Shown piece after piece: positions 23,352 through 26,269 of a stretch of DNA of 30,549 nt. This DNA comes from a virus, in the IMG/VR virus record IMGVR_UViG_3300042375_000103, positions 1 through 30,549 of that record; one strand, 5' to 3'. Both the position numbers and the translations under genes were made by a program. The notes under the pieces are model-generated. The model worked only from the letters and a program-made list of their open reading frames with translations, ran no database searches and had not been told where the DNA came from. How positions within the stretch are numbered: position 1 is the stretch's first letter; every line of letters begins with the position of its first letter.

Positions 23352-23555
23352 TTAACCTTGCAATTGGTTTTTAAATGTTTCGTTGTAGTATTGTTCTGCT
23401 TCTTTTTCACTATCCCAATTAGAACCACCATCCCAATAAGCATCAATAATCTGCTGCTTTTCCATTTCTTTAGCTTGTTGAATTACTATTCGTTGTTCTT
23501 CAAAATTTGCTATAGTTAATTGTTTTAATAACCATTCTACTGCTGTTTGTTTCAT
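23352..23555 (-). CDS. Paralogous small phage protein B (QAKE-EKQQIIDA family)
   Basis: The 67 aa product (MKQTAVEWLLKQLTIANFEE...) is the second copy of the family at 22612-22806, sharing AVEW/AIEW, QAKEMEKQQIIDA and YYNETFKN. Divergence in the middle but identity in the 3' 32 bases suggests duplication followed by drift, or homogenisation of the ends by recombination. Function is unknown. Confidence 0.68.
   Translation of the reverse strand: MKQTAVEWLLKQLTIANFEEQRIVIQQAKEMEKQQIIDAYWDGGSNWDSEKEAEQYYNETFKNQLQG
23367..23398 (-). repeat. 32 base repeat, copy 2 (3' end of paralogue B)
   Basis: This is identical to 22618-22649. The two copies flank about 750 bases containing the genes at 22612-23337. 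Recombination between them would delete or duplicate that cassette. Confidence 0.85.
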
Positions 23556-24064
23556 ATCTTTCTTTTACTATTTATTTCTACTAATTGGTTTAATCTAAAC
23601 AAAAATAATTCGTGGTGTTCTGTGCCTTCAAATCTATGAAAAAGTAATTTAATATTTTGTATTGTTTCGTGTTCATCTCGTAGTAATTGTTTCTTTAGTT
23701 TTTCATTCTCTATTTGTAAATCTATTAATTCGCCCTGTAAGCGGTTAATTTGTTTGCGAAGTAAATCTATATCAGTTGAATCTATTTGTTTGTCAAACAT
23801 CTTTAAAATGCGTTCCTTGTACTTGTTTAGTGTTGGGTTATATCTTACTAACATATCCCATTGGTTTAATCCGTGTATAACTGTAGCGTGATTCTTATTT
23901 ACTGATTTACCTATTTGTTTTAAAGTTGTCTTAGGTGTTATTTCTTTTATCAGGGTATAATATAAACTACGTGCTTCTACCTGCTCACGTGTACGTGTAG
24001 TATCATCTACGTTTATGTTAGTTTGTTGTAATACTAATTCTTTTATTTTATCGTTTATTTCCAT
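23552..24064 (-). CDS. DnaA domain IV-like DNA-binding protein
   Basis: The 170 aa product carries a DnaA C-terminal (domain IV) signature. An N-terminal helix leads into ARSLYYTLIKEI (31-42), a helix-turn-helix around TLKQIGKSVNKNHATVIHGL (47-66), where NHATVIHG parallels the DHSTVIHA DnaA-box contact motif of bacterial DnaA. The second half is a coiled coil (RKQINRLQGELIDLQIENEK), which would support dimers. There is no AAA+ ATPase domain. It may bind DnaA boxes on host or phage DNA, directing or blocking initiation; that role is inferred. It overlaps the 67 aa gene by 4 bases. Confidence 0.8.
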   Translation of the reverse strand: MEINDKIKELVLQQTNINVDDTTRTREQVEARSLYYTLIKEITPKTTLKQIGKSVNKNHATVIHGLNQWDMLVRYNPTLNKYKERILKMFDKQIDSTDIDLLRKQINRLQGELIDLQIENEKLKKQLLRDEHETIQNIKLLFHRFEGTEHHELFLFRLNQLVEINSKRKI

Positions 24065-24285: not shown

Positions 24286-24555
24286 TTAAATGTTATTAAT
24301 AAAGAAAATATGTTTTTCTTCATTACAACTGCTTAATTCAATATAAGTTTTATTTTCTTCAGGAAATGTATGTATGGCAAAATGGCTTTCACCTAATAAC
24401 CATAAACCAGTCCAACCTTGTGGCTCAAAAAAATGTTCTTGAAAATTTAATACTGTAAAATTACTTAAATAAAGTAAATCACTAAATTTTTCTTTTAATA
24501 AACTTGGCTCTATAATATTTACCCATTGACTATGCTTATAAATTTCTGCTTTCAT
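24286..24555 (-). CDS. Miniature S-adenosylmethionine decarboxylase-like protein (SpeD family)
   Basis: The 89 aa product resembles prokaryotic class 1B SAM decarboxylases, which self-cleave to form a pyruvoyl cofactor. It has HFFEPQGWTGLWLLGESHFA (41-60): GES holds the self-cleavage Glu56-Ser57 pair. IHTFPE follows with His62 (equivalent to T. maritima His68, from memory) and ELSSC with Cys77 (Cys83). The Ser-His spacing of 5 and Ser-Cys spacing of 20 match that enzyme. Aromatic F43 and F64 fall where the substrate is stacked. The protein stops 12 residues after the Cys, so the usual C-terminal helix and strand are missing. It may decarboxylate SAM or, as reported for phage SpeD relatives, an amino acid. 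It lies 10 bases after the DNA methyltransferase. Confidence 0.82.
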   Translation of the reverse strand: MKAEIYKHSQWVNIIEPSLLKEKFSDLLYLSNFTVLNFQEHFFEPQGWTGLWLLGESHFAIHTFPEENKTYIELSSCNEEKHIFFINNI

Positions 24556-24565
24556 AATATATTTT

Positions 24566-25489
24566 TTATTGTTCGTAATATTCGTTTTTAGGTATTAATT
24601 CTTTGAAGTTTTCTTTTATTTTTTTTGGGTCGCCTTTATAAAATACTAAAATATTTTGATGCCTTCTACCTACTTTTCTACCACTATTCATAAATTTTCC
24701 TGCACGAAGTGGTAAAGTTCCAACACTATTAACTAATATTAAATCATTATAAAATTTATAACCTGCTCTTTTCATTATTCCAATAGTATGTGGAACTAAT
24801 AAGATATATTCACCACTTTTTTTATCTCTTACCTCGCTTGTTACAATTACCGCAAATCTATTATCTTTTAATTTTTTAAATGTATTTGTTAAAATTTTAT
24901 TATACATTTTAAAAAAATCATCTTGGTTCATATTGCTTAAATCTTCCTTTAAATCACTATAAATTTCTAAATCAAAATATGGCGGGCAGCTAAAAATAAA
25001 ATCCATACTATTATCTTCAATGTATTTATCCATATTTTCAGAATTATCACAAATATATTTAGCATTTAAATTTTCTCTGTTACATTGAATTTGATTAAAT
25101 TTAGCTTGTTCAGGTCTTAACTCTATTCCTGTAAATGGTCTATTAAACCAAGAACTAACAAAACCAAAAACTGTATCTCCCGCAAATGGGTCAAATGTTT
25201 TAAAATTATCTTCTGTAAACCATTTTATTATTATTTCAGCTAAACAAGCATCTAATATAGATGTTCCATTCATATTATTCATTACATCTTTTTCATTATC
25301 AGAACCACCCAAAACATTTTTTCTTTCTTGTCCATAATCATTTATTAATATATTCCATCTTTTTTTCCTTCTTTGCCATTCTCCATCAACTGTGTTAATA
25401 ATTGAAAATGGTGCAACACCAAAATAATCGCTCATTGTTCTTTTTGAATCTAAAATTGGATTCCCAAATAAATCTAAATTTTCTTCCAT
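24566..25489 (-). CDS. SAM-dependent DNA methyltransferase (N4/N6 type)
   Basis: The 307 aa product belongs to a phage DNA methylase family. Its N-terminus has YFGVAPFSIINTVDGEWQRR (22-41) and GTSILDACLAEI. Motif I is FDPFAGDTVFG (99-109), binding SAM; GIELRPEQ (121-128) supplies the acidic residue for the ribose. Catalytic motif IV is SCPPYFDLEIYSD (167-179). With motif I before motif IV and a long C-terminal region after it, the order is gamma-like. NSGRKVGRRHQNILVFYKG lies near the C-terminus. It probably protects phage DNA from restriction or marks replication or packaging sites. The base composition looks more AT-rich than its neighbours, suggesting later gain. Confidence 0.88.
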   Translation of the reverse strand: MEENLDLFGNPILDSKRTMSDYFGVAPFSIINTVDGEWQRRKKRWNILINDYGQERKNVLGGSDNEKDVMNNMNGTSILDACLAEIIIKWFTEDNFKTFDPFAGDTVFGFVSSWFNRPFTGIELRPEQAKFNQIQCNRENLNAKYICDNSENMDKYIEDNSMDFIFSCPPYFDLEIYSDLKEDLSNMNQDDFFKMYNKILTNTFKKLKDNRFAVIVTSEVRDKKSGEYILLVPHTIGIMKRAGYKFYNDLILVNSVGTLPLRAGKFMNSGRKVGRRHQNILVFYKGDPKKIKENFKELIPKNEYYEQ

Positions 25490-25498
25490 TTTTTTTAT

Positions 25499-26269
25499 TT
25501 ATAAAATTCCACGTAATACATACTGATTCAAATCTACATCGCTATCTGACCCAAAAAAGTATTTATAGTTACTAATACCTTGTTCTAACTTTTCTTTTCC
25601 TCTTTGGTAAAATTCATCTGAACATTCAAAGATACCAATATCTAAACTACCTTTGTCAATACACACAAAAACAAATTCATCTACACCAAACATTTCACGG
25701 TATAAATAAGCCTGCAAATCGTAACTATATTTATCTGCTGAATAACGAAATTCATTTAGTCCTGTAGTAGTTTTTAAATCTACTATCATATTGTCTTTTA
25801 ATATATCTGCTTTTGCTCTAAATGGTAATCCATCTATCATTGCTATTTCAGGTACTTCAAATTCTGCTTTACTCATATAATGTACTGCTTCATCATTCTT
25901 TAAAATTGCATCAGCTAAACGTTCAGCATCTTTTATTTCTTTTGTGGTGTATACTTCTTTACCTTCTGCTTTTGCTTCTTTGTAAACTTTATTGGCTTTA
26001 GTAGCTACATCAACTATTACAAGTTCATCTATCTTGTGTGGTTCTAATATCAATGTGTGAAACAGTTTACCATCACGTAACGGCTGCGTTTCTGATTGGC
26101 CATACTTTGTAACGTACTTGTATGTTTTAGGCGATTTAAGCACCATTTTTAATGTAGATGATGATAATGCTTGTTTACCTAAATAACCGTAGTAAAACTC
26201 ATCATTGTACATATTATCTAAAATTTCTTTTTTATCCCAAATCTTGTTATCTAATGTTTTAATTTCCAT
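25499..26269 (-). CDS. RecE/Exo VIII-like PD-(D/E)XK exonuclease
   Basis: The 256 aa product matches the phage RecE-like nuclease group (DUF3799/PDDEXK type). ALSSSTLKMVLKSPKTYKY (34-52) and GKLFHTLILEP (67-77, H71) form the N-terminal part. KADIL (D155), VDLKTTTG (D164 and K166) and YDLQAYLYREM (Q186 and Y190) form the metal-binding and DNA-binding core. Such enzymes resect double-strand ends so that an annealing protein can load. The expected partner is the ERF protein at 142-726, which lies in a separate transcription unit. It is 10 bases upstream of the methyltransferase. Confidence 0.85.
   Translation of the reverse strand: MEIKTLDNKIWDKKEILDNMYNDEFYYGYLGKQALSSSTLKMVLKSPKTYKYVTKYGQSETQPLRDGKLFHTLILEPHKIDELVIVDVATKANKVYKEAKAEGKEVYTTKEIKDAERLADAILKNDEAVHYMSKAEFEVPEIAMIDGLPFRAKADILKDNMIVDLKTTTGLNEFRYSADKYSYDLQAYLYREMFGVDEFVFVCIDKGSLDIGIFECSDEFYQRGKEKLEQGISNYKYFFGSDSDVDLNQYVLRGIL

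Follow-up and report, generated by a model that had tools for sequence, protein, structure and literature searches.

Why should a phage place the gene for an S-adenosylmethionine (SAM) decarboxylase-like protein directly behind one for a DNA methylase-fold enzyme? The pair lies in a virus record of 30,549 bases from IMG/VR, which may be a fragment; the whole of it is called the window here (Table 1). Decarboxylated SAM (dcSAM) is the aminopropyl donor for polyamines, and an initial annotation of the locus had raised three possible roles for the SpeD-like protein: lowering SAM as T3 SAM lyase does, supplying a polyamine for packaging, or making dcSAM as a donor for the methylase-like enzyme. 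Its description of the genes was borne out. The SpeD-like gene does follow the methylase gene after exactly 10 bases, both on the minus strand; the Glu-Ser pair, His and Cys stand at family spacing, with E56-S57, H62 and C77 aligned to the SpeD of T. maritima; and a spermidine synthase gene is indeed absent, as PF01564 was not matched anywhere in the window record. The third role, offered as speculation at the time, is now the leading hypothesis. As for the neighborhood, a PDDEXK exonuclease VIII-like protein (25499-26269, phrog_412 E 1.2e-41) is encoded immediately upstream of the methylase, and a protein bearing the C-terminal DNA-binding domain of DnaA (23552-24064, PF08299 E 1.2e-11) lies two genes past SpeD.

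Table 1. Features of the methylase-SpeD locus in the window.
Feature	Coordinates	Strand	Basis
Short SpeD-type AdoMet decarboxylase (phrog_27309 subfamily), 89 aa	24286..24555	-	Profile matches and AlphaFold model
Class I methyltransferase-fold enzyme, 307 aa, predicted DNA aminopropyltransferase (D-type clade)	24566..25489	-	PF01555, phrog_12517/498, model
Intergenic gap between methylase and SpeD, exactly 10 bases	24556..24565		Sequence; relatives usually overlap (median 20 nt)
Glu56-Ser57, predicted self-cleavage site giving the pyruvoyl group	24385..24390	-	Sequence; conserved pattern
His62, predicted proenzyme-processing His	24370..24372	-	S-to-H spacing as in T. maritima SpeD
Cys77, predicted proton donor	24325..24327	-	H-to-C spacing as in T. 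maritima SpeD
Methylase motif I FAGDTVFG, residues 102-109, with Asp105 and Phe108	25163..25186	-	Alignment; SpeD-free relatives have FAGGSVRG
Methylase Leu79, N-terminal of motif I	25253..25255	-	Alignment; Phe in SpeD-free relatives
Methylase motif IV CPPY, residues 168-171, predicted target-base pocket	24977..24988	-	Invariant in alignment A6

The first step is to establish what the small protein is, and its sequence and relatives indicate that it is probably a true AdoMet decarboxylase. Among Pfam families it matches AdoMet_dc only (E 4.9e-14, 53 bits against a gathering cut-off of 25); it also matches 1tlu, the Thermotoga AdoMetDC (E 1.7e-7), and PHROG 27309, annotated as 'S-adenosylmethionine decarboxylase' (E 7e-36). 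The spacing of its catalytic residues is identical to that of the T. maritima enzyme, and its AlphaFold model (pLDDT 95.4) matches PDB 1tlu with an E of 9.2e-7 and a TM of 0.70. The protein stops about 12 residues past the Cys, without the C-terminal third of classical SpeD, and at 44.9 bits it misses the NCBIfam equivalog cut-off of TIGR03330 (75.65 bits); it was assigned to the short phrog_27309 subfamily and not to that equivalog. This short form is a real, large subfamily found in phages and some cells. Among 173 SpeD relatives adjoining the methylase, the tail past the Cys has a median of 16 residues, and the pattern ESH-x3-H-x14-C is present in all but one of 175 SpeDs adjoining this methylase clade, the exception (L346) carrying an in-frame deletion of the active site. 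The closest cultured relative is gp67 of Croceibacter phage P2559S, 57% identical over 98% of the length. In complementation experiments, gp67 brought back spermidine in an E. coli speD deletion strain supplied with speE, on which grounds its authors termed it a bona fide AdoMet decarboxylase (PMC9992855).

A further arrangement was seen at three loci where a short SpeD occurs with no methylase. There, a second SpeD-like gene of 121 aa lies beside the short one (L009:1026-1391, L017:5284-5649 and L101:4449-4814) and carries FVDKNGDxYxDIFSCKPYDVE, a resemblance noted by eye; the two products could possibly form a two-subunit decarboxylase.

The larger protein is built on a methyltransferase plan. 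It matches the Pfam N6_N4_Mtase family PF01555 (E 2e-11, 44.7 bits against a gathering cut-off of 26.7) and PHROG 12517 (E 2.5e-77), as well as phrog_498, and it gave no match to PF01564 up to an E of 1. Its motif IV reads CPPY, invariant in the family alignment; the pattern for N6/N4 amino-methyltransferases is [DNS]PPY. Motif I reads FAGDTVFG, which departs from the canonical FxGxG, and its SpeD-free relatives have FAGGSVRG. As modelled, with a pLDDT of 87.6, the protein has a class I methyltransferase fold, and the best fold matches are Trm11, TrmN and Trm14, with Z of 19-21. These three enzymes act on the exocyclic N2 of guanine in tRNA; the top structural matches are thus tRNA m2G enzymes and not DNA N4/N6 methylases, which the ranking does not thereby exclude.

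The pairing of the two genes is widely conserved. When loci were fetched by similarity to SpeD, the gene directly upstream was this methylase at 83 viral loci and at 10 cellular ones, most of the latter in prophages; it almost always occupied position -1 on the same strand. Of 114 distinct pairs, 88 lie within 30 nt of each other, with a median overlap of 20 nt. Absence of the pair from related phages had been named in advance as a result that would count against a link, and the opposite was found, with the pair present in more than 100 phage contigs. On the survey of loci, chance adjacency was rejected. The cassette also occurs in the cultured phages P2559S and Pseudomonas phage ZRG1; gp66 of P2559S, directly before gp67, shares 44% identity with the window methylase, and the paper describing gp67 makes no mention of methyltransferases (PMC9992855). 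No match to PF01564 was found in 28 phage records carrying the pair.

Conservation of the pair is accompanied by a change in the methylase itself. For this comparison, methylases were gathered by methylase similarity alone and counted as unique domains, and two kinds were distinguished by motif I: D-type, with FAGD[ST]VFG, and R-type, with FAGGSVRG. SpeD is the next gene downstream for 57 of 60 D-type domains and for none of 130 R-type domains. Three further scans yielded 61 previously unseen methylase domains, the motif I of four of which (L437, L551, L590 and L670) was assigned by eye, and here SpeD accompanied 33 of 35 D-type domains, 0 of 22 R-type domains, 0 of 3 with the form FAGG-[MVI]FG and the single domain of another form not at all. 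Samples of 400 genomes from each of two phyla held the methylase in 4 and 2 genomes, numbers too small for testing the rule.

Several alignment columns separate the SpeD-linked from the SpeD-free group. Column 105 is Asp in all 57 SpeD-linked sequences versus Gly in all 92 SpeD-free ones; column 108 is Phe in 54 of the 57 versus an invariant Arg; column 79 is Leu throughout the first group versus Phe throughout the second; and column 110 is aromatic in the one and aliphatic in the other. Among the columns that fully separate the two groups, the change in charge is confined to 105 and 108. A different association was noted among R-type methylases, where a PLP fold-type II enzyme (PF00291) adjoins or is fused to the methylase at 13 of 128 loci, and at no D-type locus. 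Cases are L188:1406-2275, L187:4756-5466 and L190:1973-4462, in Mycobacterium phage Vincenzo, Microcystis phage Mae-JY30 and Pseudanabaena phage Pam4. The PF00291 enzyme may act as a second partner that tailors a donor or a product.

How much weight such counts can bear depends on phylogeny. In a tree built without the motif columns, D-type methylases group as a single clade (SH-aLRT 99), so that the large D-type/SpeD counts reflect one origin and long retention; a Fisher p of 2e-45 was for that reason discarded as evidence of repeated events. Independent information on the link between SpeD and Asp105 comes instead from losses and swaps. On three separate occasions (L278; L464; and the group L320/L603/L609), SpeD and Asp105 were lost together, the Asp because the loop became one residue shorter; these enzymes have reverted to Phe79, as in the R-type; the L320 group is sister to the SpeD-bearing L275 with a support of 100. 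Three other SpeD losses kept Asp105, namely L285, L294/L301/L634, where the loss is very recent by branch length, and L513, which has Phe79. The converse state, SpeD without Asp105, occurs in none of 71 rows. Losses were scored on contigs that may be fragmentary, and in the cases read closely SpeD is found nowhere in the contig. A sign test on independent pairs gave 3-4 in the same direction and 0 opposite (p 0.125), with 0.05 unreachable for so few pairs.

Swaps of the partner point the same way. In ZRG1, L272 and L273, the methylase sits beside a classical full-length SpeD (129 aa in ZRG1) from a different deep branch of the family (split 99). Because this partner comes from so distant a branch, SpeD was exchanged here rather than dropped; and as the three methylases nest within the D-type clade, the activity was kept while the gene that provides it was swapped.

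What might the loop switch mean? In spermidine synthases, the first Rossmann strand is followed by a glycine-rich loop, and an Asp of this loop binds the dcSAM amine, as seen for Asp131 of Arabidopsis SPDS1 (AtSPDS) and Asp98 of K. lactis SpdS (KlSpdS) (PMC6514230, PMC10146546). Asp105 stands in the same register as the Asp of the spermidine synthase motif GGGDG, where the strand is followed by four residues ending in Gly and then by Asp; the equivalence rests on this motif register, since the motifs of the methylase family and of the cellular spermidine-synthase-like family did not align meaningfully in a profile-profile comparison. One acid is already in place, as Asp100 of the window methylase is the kept counterpart of the motif I Asp that, at the strand end of the methylase CamA, binds the amine of SAM (PMC8187626). 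Arg108 of the R-type enzymes, in turn, may hold the carboxylate of SAM, and loss of this Arg together with gain of the further acid in D-type enzymes would fit a donor that has no carboxylate. Judged from these sequence comparisons, which support it well, use of dcSAM as the donor is held with good confidence.

Comparison or the work of others shows the pairing, the loop switch, its loss along with SpeD and, for a close relative, AdoMet decarboxylase activity; what we infer beyond them is the dcSAM donor, an aminopropyl rather than a methyl group, the base that is modified and the purpose this serves. In the proposed scheme, the two genes would constitute a DNA-modification cassette. SpeD would cleave itself at Glu56-Ser57, gain its pyruvoyl group and decarboxylate SAM to dcSAM, which the methylase-fold enzyme would bind in place of SAM, with Asp105 holding the amine and with the Arg that SAM-using relatives keep at 108 gone. 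A 3-aminopropyl group would then be moved to an exocyclic amine of a phage DNA base, where adenine N6 or cytosine N4 is the probable target, with release of methylthioadenosine, and the resulting positively charged base could hide the DNA from host nucleases or help in its packaging. The aminopropyl step, suggested by the use of dcSAM together with chemistry and analogy, is reasonably likely, and the whole cassette explanation, from SpeD-made dcSAM to aminopropylated phage DNA, is rated as rather likely too. Stated generally, that phages carry a methylase-fold DNA aminopropyltransferase that uses dcSAM from a co-encoded SpeD to place N-(3-aminopropyl) groups on bases is favored on balance. For the third role raised at the outset, the choice of donor is thus supported, given a pair present in so many phage contigs and a cofactor loop whose charge differs by SpeD status, while the aminopropyl transfer is a proposal. 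Points against this cassette are the single origin behind the large counts, the three SpeD losses that kept Asp105, and that the host could supply dcSAM or could spend it on spermidine.

The last point leads to the main rival, polyamine supply. Here, SpeD would only raise spermidine for packaging or translation through the host's spermidine synthase, while the methylase would be an ordinary one and the two genes would merely travel together in one clade. Phage SpeDs elsewhere have been taken as polyamine genes, and the P2559S enzyme sustains spermidine synthesis in E. coli that has speE (PMC9992855). The single clade of D-type methylases fits this account as well, as does a strong PF01564 match in three prophage hosts (G035, G040 and G042). 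Across the D-type prophage genomes, however, that profile is weak, partial or absent in the other five (G036-G039 and G041), and the carboxyspermidine enzyme nspC is found in 7 of 8. Nor does spermidine supply predict that SpeD should track the SAM loop of the methylase or that the two should have been lost together three times. Polyamine provision for packaging is a conceivable role, although it predicts nothing about the methylase, and the account as a whole is considered unlikely.

Cellular genomes offer another view of the partnership. There, the short SpeD commonly has as its neighbor a membrane protein that contains a spermidine-synthase domain (in L172, PF01564 E 3.1e-45), and the cluster of such neighbors comprises 57 loci, with GGGDG in 46 members. 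In cells, short SpeD thus adjoins the protein that is likely to consume its product; in phages the methylase takes that position. The cellular operons (L107-L181), found in Tenacibaculum, Aquimarina, Fulvivirga and Clostridia, encode the membrane spermidine-synthase-like protein and also DUF4178-, DUF350-, PspA-like and potassium-channel-like proteins, the latter four named by eye from sequence.

Another conceivable reading is that the methylase-fold enzyme binds dcSAM yet transfers its methyl group, so that the phage would own a private methyl donor. The loop switch and the pairing fit this equally well, and both the CPPY motif IV and the fold are methylase-like. It would bring no clear advantage, however; dcSAM serves in biology as an aminopropyl donor, and the aminopropyltransferases beside cellular short SpeDs also speak against it. 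This reading is regarded as quite improbable. Less probable still, and put low, is that SpeD lowers SAM, or that its product inhibits host methyltransferases, and so blunts restriction in the manner of T3 SAM lyase. Phage SAM-degrading enzymes do exist (eLife 2021, PMC7877911), but this first of the initially proposed roles lost ground because it would starve a SAM-family enzyme of the same operon and does not predict the linked change in the cofactor loop. Finally, decarboxylation of ornithine or arginine, a shift known in some other phage SpeD homologues (PMC9992855, PMC10407285) and mentioned in the initial annotation, found no support and was set aside as very improbable, since the close relative P2559S gp67, which restored spermidine in the E. 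coli speD mutant, has published AdoMet decarboxylase activity (PMC9992855).

If the cassette works as proposed, it would be the first use of decarboxylated SAM for modifying DNA, as far as the literature search shows; that search, with most subscription papers outside it, returned no report of an aminopropyl- or dcSAM-based phage DNA modification. Phage DNA chemistry would be extended by a donor and a modified base that are both new to it, a simple route to primary amines on DNA would become available for labelling, and part of the phage 'polyamine' SpeD genes would be re-explained as DNA-modification genes. As cultured phages, P2559S and ZRG1, carry the cassette, the idea is testable on virion DNA.

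Comparison with known systems helps to place the pair. Relative to class 1b SpeD (T. maritima 1tlu and P2559S gp67), the window protein has the same fold, Glu-Ser pair and His/Cys spacing, but it is only 89 aa long, without the C-terminal third, and its partner is a DNA-methylase-fold gene instead of a spermidine synthase. With spermidine synthase (PF01564), the window methylase has in common the class I fold, a SpeD partner and, in register only, an Asp right after motif I; it differs in giving no PF01564 match and in having a nucleic-acid-type CPPY. The phage ParB-N6/N4 methyltransferases, such as Listeria phage B054 gp77 and Enterococcus phage phiFL3A gp36 (phrog_498/12517), share its domain at 41-46% identity and its CPPY motif, but unlike it they have FAGGSVRG, no SpeD neighbor and a ParB-type N-terminal region. 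A 2025 survey of ParB folds mentions phage ParB-N6N4 methylase fusions, and its text does not mention a decarboxylase. Lastly, phages phiW-14 and M6 carry hypermodified DNA with alpha-putrescinylthymine and 5-NedU, respectively, on thymine C5, built from 5-hydroxymethyl-dU. In those phages, as in the present proposal, the DNA would carry an amine with a positive charge; unlike in the proposed cassette, their amine is not made by a SAM-family enzyme with dcSAM.
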